A stretch of 64,000 nt of DNA, from contig NZ_JAGSOV010000009.1 of assembly GCF_023898865.1 (NCBI RefSeq), forward strand, positions 62,001 through 126,000, in the 5' to 3' direction. This document shows positions 24,873 through 58,692 of this stretch, piece by piece; position 1 is the stretch's first letter; each line of letters begins with the position of its first letter. This DNA comes from Pseudonocardia humida (lineage in GTDB: Bacteria > Actinomycetota > Actinomycetes > Mycobacteriales > Pseudonocardiaceae). The notes under the pieces were generated by a model, which searched no databases, had not been told where the DNA came from, and saw only the letters and a list, made by a program, of their open reading frames with translations. The position numbers were made by a program, and so were the translations under genes.

Positions 24873-27245
<2,373 letters not shown>

Positions 27246-27252
27246 CTAACAT

Positions 27253-27270
27253 ACATACATGTCTGTATGT
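27253..27270. promoter_or_regulatory. Probable TetR operator
   Basis: A perfect inverted repeat ACATACA-TGTC-TGTATGT lies between the DUF2867-like gene and the divergent TetR gene. This is close to the classic site of short TetR/AcrR regulators. It covers the in-frame ATG at 27267, which is therefore unlikely to be the real TetR start. Confidence 0.85.
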
Positions 27271-27278
27271 GGGTCGTC

Positions 27279-47921: not shown

Positions 47922-47941
47922 CACTTACCGACCTGTCAGCA
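47922..47941. promoter_or_regulatory. Probable TetR operator, copy 1
   Basis: CACTTAC-CG-ACCTGTCAGCA lies 31 bp upstream of the TetR start. The same 20-bp element with only two mismatches recurs at 57403-57422 before the sugar-binding-protein gene. It is AT-rich against its surroundings and well placed for autoregulation. Confidence 0.75.
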
Positions 47942-47972
47942 GACGTCGGCGGAACCATGACAGAGTGAGCGC

Positions 47973-48626
47973 ATGAGTGACGGTCCGGAGGTCTCGTCCG
48001 ACACCGCCGACCGGCCGATCCCGCGGCTCAGCGCCAGGGCGCTCAAGCGGCGCGGGGAGATCCTGCGCGCCGCGCACGAGGTGTTCACCAGCAAGGGGTT
48101 CCGCAACGGCTCGCTTGGCGACATCGCCGACCGGGTCGGCATCACCCACCAGGGGATCCTGCACTACTTCGGCAGCAAGGAGCAGCTGCTCGTCGAGGTG
48201 CTGCGCGACCGCGACACCAGCGGGCGGGTGGAGTTCGAGAGCGCCGAGCGCCCGCAGGGGGTCGACTTCCTGCAGCACGTCCTGCGGACGGTGGAGAAGA
48301 ACGTCTCGCGCACCGGCATCGTCCAGGCCTACACGGTGCTCTCGGCGGAGTCGGTCACCGAGGAGCACCCGGCGCAGGGCTGGTTCCGCGACCGCTTCGC
48401 GGTGCTGCGCGCCGAGCTCGCCGAGGCCCTGCGGGTGGCCTGCGGCCCGGAGGACCCGGTCCCCGACGAGCAGCTCGACCGGGGCGCCTCCGCGCTCATC
48501 GCGGTGATGGACGGGCTGCAGGTGCAGTGGCTGCTCGACCCGGACGCGGTCGACATGCCCGCCGTGGTGCGGATGACGCTCGACGCGCTGCTGCGCTCGT
48601 GGGGGCGCCCGCCGCTGGCCCCCTGA
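47973..48626 (+). CDS. TetR-family regulator, probable controller of the GH3/ABC operon
   Basis: A 217-residue TetR protein. The DNA-binding domain is FTSKGFRNGSLGDIADRVGI, then THQGILHYFGSKEQLLVEVL, with a helical ligand domain to the C-terminus. ATG start, weak ribosome binding site. It is divergent from DUF5994 and followed by a SARP-type regulator. A matching operator upstream of the sugar importer about 9.5 kb away makes that operon its probable target. Similar TetR proteins beside GH3 and sugar ABC genes respond to a transported sugar or glycoside (inference). Confidence 0.88.
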   Translation: MSDGPEVSSDTADRPIPRLSARALKRRGEILRAAHEVFTSKGFRNGSLGDIADRVGITHQGILHYFGSKEQLLVEVLRDRDTSGRVEFESAERPQGVDFLQHVLRTVEKNVSRTGIVQAYTVLSAESVTEEHPAQGWFRDRFAVLRAELAEALRVACGPEDPVPDEQLDRGASALIAVMDGLQVQWLLDPDAVDMPAVVRMTLDALLRSWGRPPLAP

Positions 48627-48709
48627 CGGGGGTCCCCGCCCGGTCGTGGCGGCGATACGGTGGCGCGGCCACCCACCGTCACCGACACGTCGCCCGGGAG
48701 GTCGTCGCC

Positions 48710-51490
48710 GTGGTCGCCGGTCCCGCGGTCGCCGTGCGGTTGCTCGGGCCGCCCGAGCTCGTCGTGGACGGCACCCCGGTGGTCCTGCCGCTCGGCCACC
48801 GCGCCGCGGTGCTCGCGCTGCTCGCCCTGCACCACCCCACCGGCGTCGGCCACCCGGTGATCGCCGACGGGCTGTGGGGGCCCAGCCCGCCCACGCACGC
48901 CGCGAACGCCGTGCAGGGGCACGTGTCGCGGCTGCGCAAGGCCGGGCTGGCCGTCGAGCGCACCGGGCCGCAGTACCGGCTGACCGGCGACGTGCACGTC
49001 GACGCGGCGGAGCTCGACGACCTGGTAGCCGCGGGCGACGCGCACCTGCGGGCCGGGCGCCCGGCCGAGGCGGCCGAGCGGCTGCGCGCCGCGCTGGCCC
49101 TGTTCCGCGGGCCCGTGCTGGCCGGGCTGGAGGACCTGCCGTTCGCCGCGGTGGAGATCGCCCGGCTGGAGGGCGCGCGGGCCGCGGCCGGGCGCGCCCG
49201 CATCGAGGCCGACCTGCGGCTGGGCCGCTACGCCGCGGTGCTGCCGGAGCTGGAAGCGCTGCTGGACGAGCGACCCGACGACGAGGGCCTGCTCGCCATG
49301 CTGATGCGCGCGCTGCACGGGGCGGGGCGCCACGGCGACGCGCTGGCCGCCTACGACCGCGGCCGGCGCCGGCTCGTCGCCGAGCACGGCATCGCCCCCT
49401 CGCCCGCGCTGCGCGCCCTGCACCAGGCGATGCTGGACCAGACCCACCGCGAGTCACCCGCCCCGCAGCAGGCGCCCGCGGTGCCGCGGCCCCGGCAGAC
49501 GCCGCACGGCCCGGCCGTCTTCGTCGGCCGCGCGGCCGAGGTCGCCGAGCTGGTGGAGCTGCTCGCGCCCGGCCGGCCGGGCGGGAGCGCGCCGATCGCG
49601 GCCGTGGACGGTCCCGGCGGCGTCGGCAAGACCGCGCTGGCCATCCAGGTGGCCGACCTGCTCGCCCCGTCGTTCCCCGACGGCGTCCTGTTCGCCGCGC
49701 TCGGCGGCGGCGACCCCGACCGCGCGCCCGGCACCGAGGCCGTGCTCGGTCGCTTCCTGACCGCGCTGGGCGTGGCCACCGCCGACGTGCCCGCCGACGC
49801 GGAGTCGGCGGCCGCGCGCTACCGCACCGAGCTGGCCGGGCGCCGCGTCCTGGTGGTCCTCGACGACGCCCCCGACGCCGAGCGCGTCCGGCCGCTGCTG
49901 CCGGTGGGCGGCGGCTGCGCGGCCCTGGTGACCAGCCGGGCGCCGCTCGCGCTGGCCGAGGCGGTGCCGGTCGGGCTGGGCCTGCTCCCGCTGGACGAGG
50001 CCGGCGAGCTGCTGCGGCGAGTGGGCCGGGTCGCCGGCGCGCCCGACGACGCGGTCGTCGCCGTGGCGCGGGCCTGCGGGCGGCTCCCGCTGGCGCTGCA
50101 CATCGCCGGGGGCCGGATGGCCAACCGGCCGCCCGCGTTCGCCGCCCGGCTGGCCGAGCTGCTCGCCGACGAGACCCGCCGCCTCGGCGAGCTGCGGCTG
50201 GGCGACCACGACGTGCGCTCCAGCTTCGCGGTCAGCCACCGGCTGCTCTCACCCGACGAGCAGCGCGCCTTCCGGCTGCTGTCGCGGTGGACGGGCCCGA
50301 CCGTGCCGGCCGACCTGGCCGCCGCCCTGCTCGCAACGCCCGTGCCGGACGCGAAGGCCGTGCTGAACCGGCTGGTCACCGCGCGGCTGCTGGACGAGGT
50401 CGAGCCGGGCCGCTACCGCTTCCACGACTTGCTGCGGCTGTTCGGCCGCGAGCTCGCCCGGACCGCCGACGCCGAGGGCCCGAGCCAGGAGGCGGCGCTG
50501 CGGCGGGCGCTGCACCACGTGCTCGACGCCGCCGTCACCGCCGACGCCGCGCTGTCCCCCGGCGCGCCGCCCGCACCCGGCGAGCCCGACCGCCGCGGCC
50601 GCGACCGGGCGGCCGCGCTGGCCTGGTTCGAGGCCGAGCTGGCCAACCTCGTCGCGGCCGCGGGCCTGGCCGCCGACCTCCCCGACCCGGCGTGCGCCCC
50701 GGTGGCGTGGGGCCTGAGCGACGCGGCCTTCCGCTACCTCGACTTCGCCAAGCGGTGGGCCGAGTGGACGCTGATCTGCGAGCACGGCGTGCGCGCCGCG
50801 CGTCGCGTGGGTGACGCCATCGGCGAGGCCACCGCGCTGAACCGGCTCGGCTGCGCCTACCGCGAGCGCGGCCGCGTCCCGGAGGCGCGCGACTGCCTGG
50901 AGCGGGCCCTGGACCTCGCGCGGGCCCGTGCGCACGTGCCGCTGGAGATGTCGGTGCTCAACAACCTCGCCAACACCCTGCAGGACGCCGGCCTGATCGC
51001 CGAGGCCGTCGCAGTCCACGGGGAGAAGCTGGGCCTGGCCCGGCGCACCGGCGACCGCTACAACCTCGCCGTCGCGCTGAACAACCTCGGCGACATCCAC
51101 CTGGAGGACGACGACCTCGACCGGGCGCGGCGGATGTTCGCCGAGAGCCGCGAGCTGTTCGCGGAGCTGGGCGAGCTGCGGGCGCTGGGGATGGTGCTGC
51201 ACAACCTGGGTGAGGTCGCGCTGCGCCAGGGACGCGCGGCCGACGCCGCCCGGCTCTACCGCACCGGCGCCGAGCGGTCGCGGGAGGCGGGCGACGCCTA
51301 CTCGCGCGCGGCCGGCCTGGTCGGTCTGGGCCACGCCCACCGCGCGCTCGGCGACGAGCCCGCGGCCCGCGCGGCCTGGTGCGAGGCGCACCCGATCCTG
51401 GCCGAGATCGACCCGACCGAGGCGGACGAGGTGGCCGCGCTCGCCGCCGGCGCCCGGTCGACCCGCGACGAGCAGGCGATTCAGCACTGA
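48710..51490 (+). CDS. SARP/AfsR-type regulator with NB-ARC and TPR domains
   Basis: A 926-residue regulator. An OmpR-like winged helix at about 8-95 (HAANAVQGHVSRLRKAGLAV), a bacterial transcriptional activator domain at 95-245 (RRLVAEHGIAPSPALRALHQ), an NTPase with P-loop GPGGVGKTAL near 303 and Walker B RVLVVLDDAPD near 380, and TPR repeats from about 690 (ALNRLGCAYRERGRVPEARD, VALNNLGDIHLEDDDLDRAR). AfsR-like proteins activate secondary metabolism or sugar genes. GTG with GGGAGG 8 nt upstream. Its targets may include the convergent GH3 operon. Confidence 0.9.
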   Translation: MVAGPAVAVRLLGPPELVVDGTPVVLPLGHRAAVLALLALHHPTGVGHPVIADGLWGPSPPTHAANAVQGHVSRLRKAGLAVERTGPQYRLTGDVHVDAAELDDLVAAGDAHLRAGRPAEAAERLRAALALFRGPVLAGLEDLPFAAVEIARLEGARAAAGRARIEADLRLGRYAAVLPELEALLDERPDDEGLLAMLMRALHGAGRHGDALAAYDRGRRRLVAEHGIAPSPALRALHQAMLDQTHRESPAPQQAPAVPRPRQTPHGPAVFVGRAAEVAELVELLAPGRPGGSAPIAAVDGPGGVGKTALAIQVADLLAPSFPDGVLFAALGGGDPDRAPGTEAVLGRFLTALGVATADVPADAESAAARYRTELAGRRVLVVLDDAPDAERVRPLLPVGGGCAALVTSRAPLALAEAVPVGLGLLPLDEAGELLRRVGRVAGAPDDAVVAVARACGRLPLALHIAGGRMANRPPAFAARLAELLADETRRLGELRLGDHDVRSSFAVSHRLLSPDEQRAFRLLSRWTGPTVPADLAAALLATPVPDAKAVLNRLVTARLLDEVEPGRYRFHDLLRLFGRELARTADAEGPSQEAALRRALHHVLDAAVTADAALSPGAPPAPGEPDRRGRDRAAALAWFEAELANLVAAAGLAADLPDPACAPVAWGLSDAAFRYLDFAKRWAEWTLICEHGVRAARRVGDAIGEATALNRLGCAYRERGRVPEARDCLERALDLARARAHVPLEMSVLNNLANTLQDAGLIAEAVAVHGEKLGLARRTGDRYNLAVALNNLGDIHLEDDDLDRARRMFAESRELFAELGELRALGMVLHNLGEVALRQGRAADAARLYRTGAERSREAGDAYSRAAGLVGLGHAHRALGDEPAARAAWCEAHPILAEIDPTEADEVAALAAGARSTRDEQAIQH

Positions 51491-51533
51491 TTCAGCGGGG
51501 CCCGGCAGACTGCGCGCCACGTCTGCGCGGGCC

Positions 51534-51556
51534 GCGGCGCCGCTGCGCGGCGCCGC
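51534..51556. terminator. Hairpin between the SARP and GH3 genes
   Basis: A perfect 9-bp stem (GCGGCGCCG with CGGCGCCGC) around a 5-nt loop lies between the converging stops; a second hairpin, GCAGAC with GTCTGC, sits just before it at 51505-51526. Together they can terminate both transcripts. Confidence 0.6.
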
Positions 51557-51630
51557 CGGGCGGCCGGGCGCGTGCGGGCCGGTGGCGACCGCGGAGGGGC
51601 GTGTCGCCGCCGGTCCGCACAGACCGCCGC

Positions 51631-54135
51631 TCAGCCGCTGGGCACCGCCTGCGGGCGCGGCGCGACGGTGGCGGTGAGCGCGGCGTCGTCGGCGTGGCGG
51701 CCGACCCGTACCGCGAACTCCCCCGGCTCGACGGCCCAGTCGCCCGCCGACTCGTCCCAGTGCGCGAACACCCGCTCGGGCAGCGCGATGCGCACGGTGA
51801 CCCGCTCCCCCGGACCCGCGGTCGCCGCGGCGAAGCCGGCCAGCCAGCGCGCGGGCCGTTCGAGAGCGCTCTCCGGACGCGCGAGGTAGACCTGCACGAC
51901 CTCCCGCCCGGGCCGCGCCCCGGTGTTGCGCACCGCGACCTCGACGGCGACCCCGGCCGGCTCCGGCCGCACCACCAGGCCCTCGTACGCCCAGCTCGTG
52001 TAGCCCAGGCCGTGGCCGAACCAGTACGCCGGGCGCACCCCGTCGCGCAGGTAGCGGCGGTGCCCGACGTGCAGGCCCTCCGAGTAGTGCACGACGCCGT
52101 CGACGGCGACGGTCGACGGGATCGGGTCGGCGGTGTCGCCTGGCCAGGTCATCGGCAGCCGCCCGCCGGGCTCGACGACGCCGAGCAGCACGTCGGCCAG
52201 CGCCGAGCCGAACTCCTGGCCGGGCAGCCACGACACCAGCACGGCGGCCACCTCGTCGCGCCAGGGCAGCAGCACCGGCGCTCCGGCGTTGACCACCACG
52301 ACGGTGCGCGGGTTGGCCGCGGCGACCCGGCGGACCAGCTCGTCCTGGGCGCCGGGCAGGTCCAGCTCGTCGCGGTCGAAGCCCTCGCCCTCGGACTCCT
52401 CGGTGGTGCCCACGACCACGACGGCCACGTCGGCGGCGCGCGCCGCCTCCTCGGCCGTGCGCAGGGCCTGCGCCGTGTCAGGTCGCGGGCGGGACGCGTT
52501 GACCTGCAGCGGGACGATGAGCATGTCGTCGGTGCGGCGCTCGGGGTCGACGTCGTGGCGGACGACCACGTCGACCTCGGCGCCCTCGGCCAGCTCCACC
52601 TCGTGCCCGGCCTGCGGGGGCCGGGTGAGGCCCTCGACGCCGTCGGCGTCGACCGGCAGCGCCAGCTGCCGGTCGAGCACGACGACGCCGTCGAGCAGCA
52701 GGCGGTAGCGCCCGGTCCCGGAGCAGCCCAGCACGTGCCGCCCCGAGGTCGCCGCGCGGTAGACGGTGCGCGCCTCCACGGCCCGCAGCCGAGCGGGCTC
52801 GACCCCGTCGCCGAACGCGTTGTTCCAGTTGTAGGTGGTCGAGGTGCGCTCGACGCGGCCCAGCTCGCGGTCGCCGTCGCCGAGGAAGCGGATCTCGACC
52901 CCGGGCCGGTCGGCGCCCGGGACCCGCAGGTCGGCGAGCTCCGGGGCCCCGATGCGGGAGGTCGTGGGCGCACCGGCGACGACGTCGAGCCGGACGCCGT
53001 CGCCGAGGGCGGCGCGCAGCCCGTCGGCCGGGGTCACCACCCCGGTCGGGAACACGAAGGCGCTGCCGCCGCCGAGCACCCGCGGGTGGGTCGCGTGGTC
53101 GCCGATCAGCGCCACCCGCCGGGCCGCCGGGTCCAGCGGCAGCACCGGCGCGCCGGCCACCGGCCGGTTGCCCAGCAGCACGAAGCCCGCGGCCGTCGCC
53201 GACCGCAGGTGAGCGGCCACCGCCGCCGCCCGCTCGGGCGTCGGCGCGGGCGCGAACCGGCCGGGCTCGACGCCCGGGGTGGCGTCCGGGCCGGCCGCAC
53301 CCACCCGCTCGCCCAGCCGCAGCAGCCTGCGCACCTTGGCCACGACGGCCTCGCGCGGCACCCGGCCGTCGGCGACCGCGTCGACCAGCGCCGACCCCCA
53401 CGGGGTGGTCGGGCCGGGCATCACCAGGTCGAGCTCGGCGGTGGCGGCGGCCAGGCTGCGCGCGGCGAACCAGTCGCTCATCACCACGCCGTCGAAGCCC
53501 CAGCCGCGTAGCAGCTCCAGCAGCGGGTTCTCGGTCATGGTGGTGCCGCGCACCGAGTTGTAGGCGGCCATCGCCGCCCACACCCCGGCCCCGGTCACCG
53601 CGGCCTCGAACGGCTGCAGGTACACCTCGCGCAGCGTGCGCTCGTCGACGCGGACGTCGGCGGTGAAGCGCTGCCGCTCGAAGTCGTTGCCCACGACGTG
53701 CTTCACCGTGGCCGCGACCCCGTGCTCCTGCACCCCGGTGATGTAGGCGACGGCCAACCGCGAGGTGAGCAGCGGGTCCTCGCTGAAGCACTCGAAGTGC
53801 CGCCCGCCCAGCGGCGTGCGCTGGATGTTGACCGTGGGGCCCAGCAGCACGTCGACGCGCTTGCGGCGGGCCTCCTCGGCCAGCAGCCCGCCGATGCCGC
53901 GCACCATCCCCGGGTCCCAGGAGGCGGCCAGCGCGGTCGGCGAGGGGATGTTCACCGAGGGGTCGCGCTCGTCCCACAGCTCCCCGCGGACCCCGGCCGG
54001 GCCGTCGGAGGTGACGATCCGGCGCAGCCCGAGCGCGGGCTCCGCGTGCAGGGCCCAGAAGTCGGCGCCGGTCAGCAGCCGGACCAGCCGCTCGGTCGGG
54101 AGGTCGGCCGGGTCCACCGGCACGGCGTCGGTCAC
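51631..54135 (-). CDS. Glycoside hydrolase family 3 (beta-glucosidase-like) with PA14 insert
   Basis: An 834-residue GH3 enzyme. The catalytic nucleophile is the Asp of VVMSDWFAARS, the substrate pocket includes KHVVGNDFERQR, and the C-terminal alpha/beta sandwich and fibronectin-like domain (SEGLHVGHRRYLRDG, VQVYLARPESALERPARWLA) are present. A PA14-type insert lies at about 395-525 (TSTTYNWNNAFGDGVEPARL). No signal peptide, so it acts on imported oligosaccharides. GTG overlaps the permease stop as GTGA. Last gene of the importer operon. Confidence 0.92.
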   Translation of the reverse strand: MTDAVPVDPADLPTERLVRLLTGADFWALHAEPALGLRRIVTSDGPAGVRGELWDERDPSVNIPSPTALAASWDPGMVRGIGGLLAEEARRKRVDVLLGPTVNIQRTPLGGRHFECFSEDPLLTSRLAVAYITGVQEHGVAATVKHVVGNDFERQRFTADVRVDERTLREVYLQPFEAAVTGAGVWAAMAAYNSVRGTTMTENPLLELLRGWGFDGVVMSDWFAARSLAAATAELDLVMPGPTTPWGSALVDAVADGRVPREAVVAKVRRLLRLGERVGAAGPDATPGVEPGRFAPAPTPERAAAVAAHLRSATAAGFVLLGNRPVAGAPVLPLDPAARRVALIGDHATHPRVLGGGSAFVFPTGVVTPADGLRAALGDGVRLDVVAGAPTTSRIGAPELADLRVPGADRPGVEIRFLGDGDRELGRVERTSTTYNWNNAFGDGVEPARLRAVEARTVYRAATSGRHVLGCSGTGRYRLLLDGVVVLDRQLALPVDADGVEGLTRPPQAGHEVELAEGAEVDVVVRHDVDPERRTDDMLIVPLQVNASRPRPDTAQALRTAEEAARAADVAVVVVGTTEESEGEGFDRDELDLPGAQDELVRRVAAANPRTVVVVNAGAPVLLPWRDEVAAVLVSWLPGQEFGSALADVLLGVVEPGGRLPMTWPGDTADPIPSTVAVDGVVHYSEGLHVGHRRYLRDGVRPAYWFGHGLGYTSWAYEGLVVRPEPAGVAVEVAVRNTGARPGREVVQVYLARPESALERPARWLAGFAAATAGPGERVTVRIALPERVFAHWDESAGDWAVEPGEFAVRVGRHADDAALTATVAPRPQAVPSG

Positions 54136-54998
54136 TTCACTCCTCCGACGCCCAGCCCCGAGCGCCAGAAGCGCTGCAGGAACAGGAACGCCACGATCAG
54201 CGGGACGATGGACAGCAGCGCCCCGACGATCACGAACAACTGCAGGTCGGGGTTGTGCGGGATCTGCGAGTTCCAGGTGTGCAGGCCCAGGGTGATCGGG
54301 TAGAGCGTCGAGTCCTGCAGCATCACCAGCGGCAGGAAGAAGTTGTTCCAGATCGCCACGAACTGGAACAGGAACACCGTCACCAGCGCGGGGGCCATCA
54401 GCCGGACGGCGATGGCGAAGAACGTGCGCATCTCCGAGGCGCCGTCCAGCCGCGCGGCCTCGATGAGCTCGTCGGGCACGCTGGCCGCGGCGTAGATCCG
54501 GGCCAGGTACACCCCGAACGGGCTCACGCAGCTGGGCAGCAGCACCGCCAGGTGGGTGTTGGTCGCGTCGACCTCGCTGAACAGCAGGAACAGCGGCAGC
54601 GCCAGCGCCGTGGTGGGCACCAGCACGCCGGCCAGGATGACGTTGAAGACGGCCTCCCGGCCCGGGAAGACGTACTTGGCCAGCGCGTAGCCGGCCATGG
54701 CCGCGACCAGCGTGGCGACCGCCCCACCGACGCCGGCGTAGAGCACGCTGTTGGCCATCCACTTCAGGAACAGCCCGCCGTCGAAGCCGAGCACGTCGGC
54801 GACGTTGCCGGGCAGCTCGAACGGGCCGGAGAACCACAGCCCGTGCGAGGCCCGCAGCTCGGCCCGCGTCTTCGACGCCGTGACCACCAGCCACCAGACC
54901 GGGGCCAGGAAGTAGCCGGCGAACAGGATCATGAACAGGGTGGCCCCGCCGACCGAGAGCGGGTTCTGCCGGGTCGACGTCCGGGTGGGTGCGGTCAC
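54132..54998 (-). CDS. Sugar ABC transporter permease (MalG type)
   Basis: A 288-residue inner-membrane permease with six helices. The EAA loop EAARLDGASEMRTFFAIAV contacts the ATPase. GTG overlaps the upstream permease stop as GTGA, and its own stop overlaps the GH3 start. It pairs with the MalF-type permease of the same operon. No ATPase gene is present; in actinomycetes a shared MsiK-type ATPase normally serves such importers. Confidence 0.92.
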   Translation of the reverse strand: MTAPTRTSTRQNPLSVGGATLFMILFAGYFLAPVWWLVVTASKTRAELRASHGLWFSGPFELPGNVADVLGFDGGLFLKWMANSVLYAGVGGAVATLVAAMAGYALAKYVFPGREAVFNVILAGVLVPTTALALPLFLLFSEVDATNTHLAVLLPSCVSPFGVYLARIYAAASVPDELIEAARLDGASEMRTFFAIAVRLMAPALVTVFLFQFVAIWNNFFLPLVMLQDSTLYPITLGLHTWNSQIPHNPDLQLFVIVGALLSIVPLIVAFLFLQRFWRSGLGVGGVK

Positions 54999-55981
54999 GA
55001 GAGCGTCCTCCGTCCGGCGATCTTCAGGAACGTGAACGACAGCACGCAGGTGACCAGGGCCAGCACCACCGAGAACGCCGCGGCCAGGTTGTAGTTCGGG
55101 ATGTTGGCCGTGGCGTGGACGACCATGTTGGGCGTGTAGTCGCTGCCCACCGCGCTGGACACCGAGCGCATCACCAGCGGCTCGTTGAACAGCTGCAGCG
55201 TGCCGATGATCGAGAACACCCCGGTCAGGCCGAGCGCCGGGGCGACCATCGGGATCTTGACCGACCAGGCGATCCGCCACTGCCCGGCGCCGTCCATCCG
55301 GGCGGCCTCGGTCAGCTCGGGCGGGATCGCCTGCAGCGCCGCGTAGATGATCAGCATGTTGTAGCCGGTGAAGATCCAGTTGACGATGTTGGCGATCGAG
55401 AAGATCACCAGGTCCGGCCCCAGCAGGTCGAACGACGTCGTCAGCAGCGTGAACGGCGACAGCGTCGGGGCGTACAGGAAGCCCCACATGATCGCCGCGA
55501 TGACCCCGGGCACGGCGTAGGGCACGAAGAACGCCAGCCGGAAGAACCGCGCCCCGCGCAGCACCGGGGAGTCCAGCAGCAGCGCGAACACCAGGGCCAG
55601 GCCCAGCTGCAGCGGGATCGAGATCACGAAGAACACCAGTACCCGGCCGATGCTGGCCCAGAACGGGCCGTTGGAGAACACCGCCGCGTACTGCACGAAC
55701 CCGCCGAACACCTCGGTCGCCCGGCCGAACGTGCCGCCGACCCGGGTGACCGTGTACAGCGACTCGACCACCGCGTACCCGATGGGCACCAGGTAGAACG
55801 CCGCGAACAGCACCACGAACGGCGCCAGGAACCCGACGACGGCGCGGCCGTGCCGGACCCGGCGCCGGGGCCGCACCGGCACGGGCCCGCGGCCGCGGCC
55901 GCGGGACGGCGGCGGCGCCGCGCCGGTCTCGTGCTGCTCGACCGCGTGCGCCACCGCCGGCGCCCCCTCCCTGTTGGTCAT
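54995..55981 (-). CDS. Sugar ABC transporter permease (MalF type)
   Basis: A 328-residue permease. After a Pro/Arg-rich cytosolic start, six transmembrane helices follow from about residue 47. The EAA loop is TEAARMDGAGQWRIAWSVKI. ATG start 7 bp after the binding-protein stop. It forms the membrane channel with the next permease and is coupled to it by GTGA. Confidence 0.92.
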   Translation of the reverse strand: MTNREGAPAVAHAVEQHETGAAPPPSRGRGRGPVPVRPRRRVRHGRAVVGFLAPFVVLFAAFYLVPIGYAVVESLYTVTRVGGTFGRATEVFGGFVQYAAVFSNGPFWASIGRVLVFFVISIPLQLGLALVFALLLDSPVLRGARFFRLAFFVPYAVPGVIAAIMWGFLYAPTLSPFTLLTTSFDLLGPDLVIFSIANIVNWIFTGYNMLIIYAALQAIPPELTEAARMDGAGQWRIAWSVKIPMVAPALGLTGVFSIIGTLQLFNEPLVMRSVSSAVGSDYTPNMVVHATANIPNYNLAAAFSVVLALVTCVLSFTFLKIAGRRTLS

Positions 55982-55988
55982 CGAGTGC

Positions 55989-57341
55989 TCAGCCGACCTG
56001 GATGGCCTGGGCCTTCATCGTCTCGATCGTCCGGGCCTGCGCGTCGCCCAGCACGTCGGCCAGCTTCGCCTGGCCGTTGACCGCCTGGCCGAAGCCGTTG
56101 GACAGCGTGTCGTAGGTGTCGGTCATCGTCGGGCCCCAGGCGAAGGAGGGGTCGACCTGGTCGTTGGCCTTCGCGAACTCGGTCCAGATCACCTGGCCGC
56201 CGAAGTACGCCGAGGGCTCGGACAGCGCAGGCAGGTCGGTCTGCCCGGTGTGCGCCGGGAACTGGCCGCCGTTCTCGTTGTTCAGCGCCAGCGCGGCCGG
56301 GTCTCCGAAGGCCCACATCGCGAACTTCGCGGCCTCGTAGGGGTGCGCCGAGCCCGCCCAGACCACGGTCGTCGAACCGCCCCAGCTGCCGCCCGCGGTG
56401 CCGCCCGCGCTCCACTGCGGCAGCGGCGCCACCGCCCACTTGCCGTTCCCGCTCGGCACGTTGGTCTCGATCAGCTTGGCCGTCCACGGCGCGCCGATCA
56501 GCGTCCACTCCTGGCCGGCGTCCAGCGCCTGCCACTCGACGTCGCCGATGCCGGGGATCGTGTTGACCTGCTCGGCGTCGATCAGCTTCTGCCAGAACTC
56601 GGCGACCTGCAGGGTCTTCGGGTCGGTCATGTCGACCTTCCACGTGCCGTCGTCGCCGACGGTGAACCAGCGCGCGCCGTTCTGCCAGGCCAGCGCAGTG
56701 AACCAGGCCGGCTGGTCGGGCATGAAGTTGCCGATCAGCCCACCCTGCGCCTGGATCTGCGCGGCCTGCTGGGCGTACTCGTCCCAGGTGGCCGGGGGCT
56801 TCAGACCGGCGGCGTCGTAGAGGTCCTTGCGGTAGTAGAGCGCCAGCGGGCCGACGTCCTGGGGGACGCCGTAGACCGCGCCCTCCTCGCCGAACGAGAC
56901 CTGCGTCCGCGTCCACTCCGGGTAGCCGTCGATGCCCTCGGCGACCGGCTGGCACCCCCCGATGTCCGCCAGGCCGTTCTGCAGCCGGAAGCTCGGCAGG
57001 TTGTCGAACTCGATCATGCCGAGGTCGCCGGTGGTGCCGGCCTTGATCTGGTTGGCGTAGGCCTGGTAGGTGCCGTCGTTGCCGCCCACGACCTCGGTGT
57101 ACTTGACCTGGATGTCCGGGTTGTTCTGGTTCCACAGGTCGACGGTCTTCTGCATGCCGGGCACCCACGAGGTGAACGTCAGCTCGACCTTCGTGCCCGG
57201 GGGAGCCGGTTCGCAGGCTCCGGCCGCGGTGGTCCCGCCCGGGCCCGGGTCGCCCCCTCCCCCGCACGCGGCGGTGACGGCGACGGTGGTGACGACTGCG
57301 GCCGTGACGGCCAGGAGCCGCCCGGGTCGGTGGTTGCGCAT
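55989..57341 (-). CDS. Sugar-binding lipoprotein of ABC importer
   Basis: A 450-residue family-1 solute-binding protein. Signal peptide with lipobox VTAAC, so it is lipid-anchored after Cys processing; a Gly-rich linker follows. VELTFTSWVPGMQKTVDLWN and QIKAGTTGDLGMIEFDNLPS are the family landmarks. It is first in the operon binding protein, MalF, MalG, GH3. A 20-bp operator-like element sits 62 bp upstream. Likely ligand is a beta-glucoside or short oligosaccharide, given the GH3 enzyme. Confidence 0.93.
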   Translation of the reverse strand: MRNHRPGRLLAVTAAVVTTVAVTAACGGGGDPGPGGTTAAGACEPAPPGTKVELTFTSWVPGMQKTVDLWNQNNPDIQVKYTEVVGGNDGTYQAYANQIKAGTTGDLGMIEFDNLPSFRLQNGLADIGGCQPVAEGIDGYPEWTRTQVSFGEEGAVYGVPQDVGPLALYYRKDLYDAAGLKPPATWDEYAQQAAQIQAQGGLIGNFMPDQPAWFTALAWQNGARWFTVGDDGTWKVDMTDPKTLQVAEFWQKLIDAEQVNTIPGIGDVEWQALDAGQEWTLIGAPWTAKLIETNVPSGNGKWAVAPLPQWSAGGTAGGSWGGSTTVVWAGSAHPYEAAKFAMWAFGDPAALALNNENGGQFPAHTGQTDLPALSEPSAYFGGQVIWTEFAKANDQVDPSFAWGPTMTDTYDTLSNGFGQAVNGQAKLADVLGDAQARTIETMKAQAIQVG

Positions 57342-57402
57342 CAGGCGCTTCCTCTCCCGATCGTCGGCGATCGGACAGGGGGTGGGTGAGCGGACCCAAC
57401 CA

Positions 57403-57422
57403 CACTTACTTACCTGTCAGCA
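57403..57422. promoter_or_regulatory. Probable TetR operator, copy 2, before the importer operon
   Basis: CACTTAC-TT-ACCTGTCAGCA, matching the element at 47922 in 18 of 20 positions. The flanks extend the symmetry slightly (ACTT at 57404-57407 and AAGT at 57422-57425). It lies between the ROK gene and the binding-protein start, where a repressor would block the operon promoter. Confidence 0.75.
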
Positions 57423-57525
57423 AGTGGCGCGGGTCGCGAATCGGCCACGCCCTGAGAGCGGTTGCAGCCCCCATGACCACCGCCGGTGGGCGAGGGGAGA
57501 CGGCGCGAGGGGCTCGGGACGGAGG

Positions 57526-58692
57526 TCAGCCCGCGCGGTCGGCGGCCCAGGCCGCCAGGCCGCGCTCGCTGATCACCTCGTCCAGGCCCACGGCGGCGGC
57601 CCCGTGCAGGGCGCCGTCGTCGCCGTGCACGGCGTCGCGGACGGCGGGCGGCGCGGCGCGGCGGAAGGCCATCAGGCCGTCGGCGAACGCCGCGTCGAAG
57701 GCCGCCCGCGCGTGCCGGCGCAGGGGACCGGCCAGGCCGCCCAGCGTGACGACCTCCGGGTCGAGGGCGTTGACCAGGCCTGCGGTGCCGGTGCCGAGGG
57801 CGCGGGTGATGCGCTCGACCGCATCGCGTGCACCCGGGCGGGCCAGCGCGGCGCGCAGGTGGCTGCGGGGGTCCTCGGGGGGCGGCTCGCCGAGGTGGCG
57901 GGCGACGGCGCGGCCGTCGACCTCCAGGTCCCAGCAGCCGCGGGCGCCGCAGGGGCAGCGCAGCGCCGGATCGCCGAAGGGCAGGTGGCCGAACTCGCCG
58001 CCGGCGCCGGTCGCGCCCGCGACCGGTCGACCGTCGACCACCAGCGTGCCGCCGATGCCGACCTCGACCGTCAGGTGCAGGGCCGTGCCCGCACCGGCCG
58101 CGGCCCCCGACCGCGCCTCGGCCACGCCGGCCAGGGTGGCGTCGTTGCCGACCAGCAGGGGCAGCCCGCGCGGCGGCGCGAGGGCGGTCAGGTCGACCGG
58201 ACCCCAGCCCAGGGTGGAGGCCTGCACGAGCCGGCCGTCGCGGACGGTCGCGGCCACCACCACCGAGACGGCCCGCACCCGCCTCCCCCAGCGGTCGACG
58301 GCGCCGTCGGCGACCGCCGCGACGGCCCGCAGCACCGCCGCGGGCCGGTGCGCGTGCCGGTCGGCGTCCAGGACGGCGACCCGCCCGTCCAGCCCGGCGA
58401 CCCCGACCCGCCAGTCCTCGTGCCGGATCTCGGCCACCAGCACCAGCGGACCCGCCGGGTGCGGCCCGAGCACCGACGTCGGGCGCCCGCGCCCGGACGC
58501 GGCGGCCGCCGTCTCGGTGACGAGGTCGAGCTCGCGCAGCCGGGCGGTGATCTCGGTGGCGGTGCCGCTGGCCAGGCCGAGGTCGCGGGCCAGGGCCGCG
58601 CGGGTGCTGCCCGGCTCGCGGCGCAACCGGTCGAGCACGGCGACGGCGCCGCGCCAGCGGGCCTCGTTGGCCGAGGCGTGCCCTGTCGGCAT
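57526..58692 (-). CDS. ROK-family transcriptional regulator
   Basis: A 388-residue regulator. A MarR-like winged helix at about 12-75 (STRAALARDLGLASGTATEI) precedes a ROK sugar-kinase fold with GNDATLAGVAEARSG, VEVGIGGTLVVDG and the zinc motif CPCGARGCWDLEV. Such proteins sense sugars and repress transport genes. The catalytic-type Asp of NDA is kept, so kinase activity is possible. ATG start. Divergent from an MFS gene, with a palindrome between, and upstream of the importer operon in the same direction. Confidence 0.9.
   Translation of the reverse strand: MPTGHASANEARWRGAVAVLDRLRREPGSTRAALARDLGLASGTATEITARLRELDLVTETAAAASGRGRPTSVLGPHPAGPLVLVAEIRHEDWRVGVAGLDGRVAVLDADRHAHRPAAVLRAVAAVADGAVDRWGRRVRAVSVVVAATVRDGRLVQASTLGWGPVDLTALAPPRGLPLLVGNDATLAGVAEARSGAAAGAGTALHLTVEVGIGGTLVVDGRPVAGATGAGGEFGHLPFGDPALRCPCGARGCWDLEVDGRAVARHLGEPPPEDPRSHLRAALARPGARDAVERITRALGTGTAGLVNALDPEVVTLGGLAGPLRRHARAAFDAAFADGLMAFRRAAPPAVRDAVHGDDGALHGAAAVGLDEVISERGLAAWAADRAG

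Follow-up and report, generated by a model that had tools for sequence, protein, structure and literature searches.

A predicted TetR-family operator at a GH3/ABC-transporter operon of Pseudonocardia humida recurs beside related genes in other actinobacteria

In the 64,000-nucleotide stretch of Pseudonocardia humida DNA analysed here (the window), a 20-bp element, CACTTACNNACCTGTCAGCA, stands before a gene for a TetR-family regulator and again, some 9.5 kb away, before the first gene of an operon for sugar import and glycoside hydrolysis, which raises the question of what protein the element serves and whether it joins the two loci into one system. The TetR gene (47973-48626, + strand) encodes a protein of 217 aa with the Pfam matches TetR_N (2e-14) and TetR_C_6 (5.6e-9), both over cut-off, and its relatives adjoin GH3 genes. 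It is followed on the same strand by a gene for a SARP-type regulator with BTAD, NB-ARC and TPR domains assigned by Pfam (48710-51490, + strand), the gap of 83 bp between them (48627-48709) depending on the start codon assumed for the SARP gene. The operon runs on the minus strand and consists of an extracellular sugar-binding protein as its first gene (55989-57341, SBP_bac_1 1.3e-25), two ABC sugar permeases (54995-55981, BPD_transp_1 6.4e-7; 54132-54998, BPD_transp_1 1e-17) and a GH3 glycosidase of 834 aa (51631-54135) with the Pfam GH3 N, GH3 C and Fn3-like domains. The closest NCBIfam model to the latter is NF052330, a beta-D-glucosidase equivalog, to which it scores 730.2 bits against a curated cut-off of 1300; judged by its sequence, the protein is related to the beta-D-glucosidases of this model and falls below the cut-off. 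A ROK-type regulator gene (57526-58692, minus strand, Pfam ROK 2.3e-34) is a neighbour that we place outside the proposed system.

Both copies of the element, which the sequence-only reading had placed at 47922-47941 and 57403-57422, proved to be exact at all 18 fixed bases. Site 1 (47922-47941, + strand; CACTTACCGACCTGTCAGCA), a predicted operator for TetR at the promoter of its own gene, has the core CTTAC-N6-GTCAG at 47924-47939 and is the less symmetric of the two, with 5 of 8 positions paired at the best 16-bp centres. Site 2, the predicted operator of the transporter/GH3 operon, begins with CACTTACTTACCTGTCAGCA (57403-57422); the 20-bp length first given holds for the reported bases and is too short for site 2, which reaches 57426 as an imperfect palindrome of 24 bp without strand (57403-57426, CACTTACTTACC followed by TGTCAGCAAGTG, 9 of 12 arm positions paired). 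The left part and the core are common to the two sites, and the right end of site 2 is absent from site 1; written as a string, the predicted operator motif is CTTACTNACNNGTNAGTAAG. In the frame of the 24-mer, the TetR ATG follows the end of site 1 at a distance of 27 bp, and the binding-protein ATG is 61 bp downstream of site 2. A simple scan for a sigma-70-like promoter found none at site 1 or site 2, and a terminator scan was empty.

The view that such a repetition is very unlikely to arise by chance was borne out, as CACTTACNNACCTGTCAGCA at up to three mismatches matched the window twice against 0.01 matches expected, and none of 100 shuffled windows held two or more. Counted at the same limit over the 8,287,167 bases of the genome, the element returned the same two sites (the reversed control pattern gave one match). 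A looser 20-bp pattern, derived from sites in relatives, found the same two places alone at up to two mismatches; its reversed control gave five matches, so this search speaks for the absence of a third site at that stringency and not for significance. The wide scatter that would have spoken against a link to the regulator was thus not seen, the 8.29-Mb genome holding two sites alone, and the expectation of further sites at other glycosidase genes failed: the genome has seven GH3 matches, yet just two element sites at the mismatch limits used. A candidate third genomic site (C36:78105, two mismatches to a related pattern) falls within a predicted reading frame and was set aside, as was an exact 16-bp match in the same-genus genome G082, which falls within a reading frame of 165 aa. 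The 16-bp core alone is not specific, because 67 of 200 genomes from the bacterial family match it at up to one mismatch and at three mismatches its counts are close to those of the reversed control. One-mismatch variants of this core repeat within genera of the family (CTTACTCACATGTCAG, CTTACGCACTTGTCAG and CTTGCTTACCTGTCAG, for example in g15, g25 and g26) and may be sites of other regulators. Elsewhere in the same genome, on contig C36, a palindrome containing CGCTTACCGAGCGGTAAGCG lies between two predicted minus-strand genes (L140:13557-13580); it resembles the core of site 1 and differs from the 20-bp pattern at more than two positions.

Relatives of the TetR protein were collected by scanning contigs with an alignment of the window TetR and its 67%-identical relative, and the loci of the best 80 of at least 453 were kept, a phylogenetically uneven set with many Cellulomonas and Agromyces. 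A GH3 match of more than 150 aa is present within the fetched locus in 58 of these best 80. The genes for TetR, binding protein, permease, permease and GH3 are contiguous on one strand in three Nocardioides loci (L146, L148 and L149) and one from Mumia (L147). Identity to the window proteins is 56-67% in the three Nocardioides (58-59% for TetR and 62-64% for the binding protein) and 58-65% for TetR and the binding protein over L146-L149. Within Pseudonocardia, a metagenome assembly (L143) has a TetR gene that abuts GH3 and has no SARP match; Pseudonocardia lacus (L144) has the SARP (an 87% match), and in L144:13818-16704 neither the binding-protein gene nor the permease genes are present and the predicted operator stands directly before GH3. 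The TetR protein was matched at 1e-30 in none of the ten other same-genus genomes of the family draw, which indicates that the system is patchy within the genus.

Conservation of the sites follows this neighbourhood. The 24-mer of site 2 is identical at 24 of 24 positions in L143, where it precedes the binding protein, and in L144, where it precedes GH3; in the three Nocardioides loci, again upstream of the binding protein, 23 of 24 positions agree, and Mumia L147 has a diverged site. In ungapped comparison with the window, the 40 bp to the left of the 24-mer agree at 20-21 of 40 positions in the two Pseudonocardia and at 11-13 of 40 in Nocardioides; for the 40 bp on the other side, the agreement is 13-18 of 40 in the former and 6-19 of 40 in the latter. 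Seen from the binding-protein gene, the asymmetric 24-mer points one way in Pseudonocardia and the other way in Nocardioides, a reversal that is compatible with an operator and hardly with a promoter box. Site 1 has its counterpart in CACTTACCGAGCTGTCAG at the corresponding place in L143; in P. lacus, the counterpart differs by a 1-bp deletion. In Nocardioides and Mumia (L146-L149) the strong site (at least 20 on the profile described below) is not upstream of TetR itself but between TetR and the binding protein. Six Cellulomonas loci (L152, L158, L161, L165, L171 and L176) appear, read by eye, to have two operator copies each in the intergenic region between TetR and GH3. That the element ties the TetR gene to the GH3/ABC operon, as had been suggested from the window, is thus supported by the recurrence of operator type and gene neighbourhood across genera.

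We built a 24-bp profile from the TetR upstream regions of L146-L222, using the best site of each; 57 of the 77 loci contributed, four of them with weak sites (below 20), and the training set contained no Pseudonocardia or Actinokineospora. Circularity was countered in two ways, the scored genus being left out each time and the profile also being applied to DNA that had no part in the training; the threshold of 20 is the analyst's choice. Over the 64-kb window, the top score is that of site 2 (35.6), and site 1 comes third (16.9). The second rank (19.8) belongs to another strong palindrome, AACATACATACATGTCTGTATGTG (27248-27271), just upstream of a different TetR gene (TetR_N 9.5e-14, probable start 27279) and next to a divergently oriented reading frame (26717-27214, minus strand); it looks like that gene's own operator. 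Among 599,265 positions outside the training set, taken from 31 regions of the same bacterial family of which four come from the own genome or genus, the lone score above 16.9 was the operator of L063 (30.5), whose TetR is the one 67% identical to that of the window. It was also the only operator found in the 19 TetR-homologue regions of the bacterial family, and 18 regions with more distant same-family homologues (about 37-48% identity), 6 of them with a GH3 gene, had no site above 16.9. The relatives of the binding protein were tried as operator carriers and rejected, since the best of their nine regions (L131-L139) has four mismatches to the 20-bp pattern and none reaches 8 on the profile.

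Among the best 80 of 453 loci, with the scored genus left out, a site of at least 20 lies beside TetR (at most 500 bp upstream or 400 bp downstream of it) in 59, and its presence goes with a close GH3 gene. Where a GH3 of at least 40% identity is present, the site was found in 46 of 47 loci, and the one exception, L144, carries it in front of GH3 instead; of the 33 loci without a close GH3, 13 have a site beside TetR and 20 have neither. The corresponding Fisher p of 2.7e-9 overstates the independence of loci that are phylogenetically uneven. In 7 of the best 80, sites of at least 20 occur elsewhere in the locus. Besides L143 and L144, these are three loci from Subtercola, in which the site is located at the GH3 3' end (for L182, where a binding-protein reading frame starts), and L203 and L218, in which it precedes a GH3 match. 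One neighbour was scanned in 8 of the 13 loci that have a site and no close GH3. It is a GH1 gene in L175 and L209, a GH2-type gene in L170, L178 and L217, and a pectate lyase-like gene, just below cut-off, in L145/L063; in L194 it is a short reading frame without a match, and in L195 the neighbour taken is MarR-like.

The regulator itself belongs to the TetR/AcrR family, having the N-terminal helix-turn-helix and the all-helical ligand domain that define it; its AlphaFold model consists of nine helices and no strands, with a mean pLDDT of 87.9. A fold search returned generic TetR matches (identity 16-25% and query-normalised TM-score 0.44-0.64 among the 50 matches listed) and gave no pointer to an effector. 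In a separate draw from the wider class, 5 of 29 loci had a site of at least 20 and 24 were below, some of the latter with other palindromes and many without a clear one. For some members of this draw, recognition helices and upstream palindromes vary together: TNAG occurs with ACCGACCAACCGGTTGGTCGGT (L232), TKAG with TATCTACCAAACGGTAGATA (L250 and L251), TPAG with TTACTTAAT-type sites (L228 and L230) and THAG with ACTTACTNAC-type sites; an exception is L239, which has the THAG helix yet lacks the motif. Going by these pairings, different recognition helices tend to go with different palindromes in the wider family.

TetR repressors bind an operator and block the promoter until a ligand releases them. 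We propose with high confidence, on the strength of the sequence comparisons, that the element serves as operator for the product of the TetR gene at 47973-48626, a protein that would repress the glycoside uptake and hydrolysis operon and, more weakly, its own gene. A TetR dimer, or possibly two dimers, would bind site 2 and keep the binding-protein, permease and GH3 genes silent; the substrate glycoside or a product of it would then bind TetR and release it, so that uptake and hydrolysis are turned on, and the weaker copy before tetR would provide autoregulation. Site 2 can be read in two overlapping registers offset by 4 bp, CTTAC-N6-GTCAG followed by CTTAC-N6-GCAAG, and site 1 in a single one. 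Both registers are present with at most one mismatch in 40 of 53 sites, a descriptive count because the registers were chosen after the sites had been seen. Other TetR proteins, QacR and CprB, bind an operator as two dimers, and the same arrangement could account for the span of 22-24 bp.

The weight of the evidence is not equal for the two halves of this proposal, support being stronger for site 2 than for autoregulation. The autoregulation suggested by the sequence-only reading is favoured by the exact match of site 1 at 18 bases and its third rank in the window, and weakened by its lower score (16.9 against 35.6), its partial divergence and the 1-bp deletion in P. lacus. That only site 2 is a TetR operator and site 1 a decayed or non-functional remnant, with no real autoregulation, is therefore an alternative to be weighed; besides the score and the deletion, it draws on the fit of site 1 to one register alone (0 and 4 mismatches). 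We think it unlikely, given that an 18-base match is very improbable by chance, that L143 retains CACTTACCGAGCTGTCAG in the corresponding place and that strong sites stand before TetR in many relatives.

The proposed operator must also be weighed against readings in which TetR is not the binder. ROK proteins often regulate sugar genes, and the ROK gene here adjoins the operon on the same strand, just upstream, so that it might itself bind the element and control the operon. The site, however, goes with TetR genes: its other copy precedes TetR, it lies beside TetR in 59 of the best 80 of 453 TetR loci, and it persists at loci in which the search for ROK (E 1e-10, more than 80 aa) found no match, as in L143, where the sequence extends 830 bp past the site, and in Nocardioides L146, L148 and L149; in Mumia L147 likewise no ROK match was found. 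This pattern points to TetR as the binder and makes control by ROK very improbable. Still less credit is due to the idea that the element is part of a promoter common to two co-expressed genes, such as the -35 box of a special sigma factor. Both copies do lie at promoter distance from their genes, and CTGACA can be read on one strand of site 2; against this stand the palindromic form of site 2, its opposite orientation to the binding-protein gene in different genera and the occurrence of the element at just two places in the genome. A coincidence or a dispersed repeat can practically be dismissed, with 0.01 matches expected in the window, two copies genome-wide and conservation across genera.

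If the element is the operator of TetR, the distance between its two copies calls for an explanation, and the SARP gene offers one. Because TetR and the operon are contiguous in Nocardioides and Mumia and the SARP is absent from L143, the SARP gene was probably inserted into an older TetR-operon neighbourhood, which would explain the 9.5-kb gap; alternatively, it was lost in L143 instead of being inserted elsewhere. The SARP gene may now be read from the TetR promoter as a co-transcribed gene, since it is on the same strand and the 83-bp gap has no operator-like site (best profile score -18). One could go further and suppose that two dimers at the catabolic promoter and one at the tetR promoter open these promoters at different ligand levels and that the SARP, drawn into the tetR transcript, couples glycoside sensing to the targets of the SARP, perhaps in secondary metabolism; we regard this extension as doubtful.

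To judge from the sequences, the same type of site recurs beside similar genes in many actinobacteria, and the system is real and of a largely ordinary kind. Its interest lies in a TetR subfamily with a recognisable predicted operator beside GH3 genes (in some loci GH1 or GH2) from Cellulomonas to Pseudonocardia, which allows regulons to be predicted in many genomes not yet studied and gives a starting point for asking what the regulators sense, and in a regulator and an operon that can still be traced to each other although a further gene now separates them.

LacI or ROK proteins are usually named as the regulators of actinobacterial operons for sugars and glycosides. TtgR, MtrR, AcrR, KstR and NalD, whose structures have been solved and which are among the best sequence and fold matches, have the fold and helix-turn-helix in common with the window TetR; they control efflux or lipid genes. 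Searches of the open-access literature for the operator strings found no paper, and for a TetR/GH3 regulator outside Bifidobacterium nothing to the point, the accessible text of PMC6828939 included. The closest published kind, compared by description, is BgrT, predicted TetR-family regulators of beta-glucoside and beta-galactoside genes in Bifidobacterium, with which family, function and gene layout agree. According to the accessible text of that report (PMC4746261, 2016), BgrT proteins make up a single branch of the TetR tree; their genes adjoin beta-glucosidases and sugar transporters, ABC transporters included, and have local regulons with predicted palindromic sites of 18-22 nt; relatives in other Actinobacteria are mentioned. 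Such a hydrolase and transporter neighbourhood is found here in the window operon, its substrate being predicted, and GH3 is present in 58 of the best 80 of 453 loci; likewise, the predicted palindromic site has an informative core of about 22 bp, and the two genomic places would make a local regulon. Unlike BgrT as described there, the operator in our case covers 22-24 bp and combines two overlapping registers, and the regulator gene is separated from the operon by a SARP gene. XsaR, a TetR regulator of arabino-oligosaccharide genes in Bifidobacterium and a predicted local repressor (accessible text of PMC5928203, 2018), is by its description similar in being a predicted local TetR repressor of a glycosidase and transporter operon, and differs in that this operon comprises GH43 and a DHA1-family permease, whereas the operon of P. 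humida combines GH3 with an ABC transporter.
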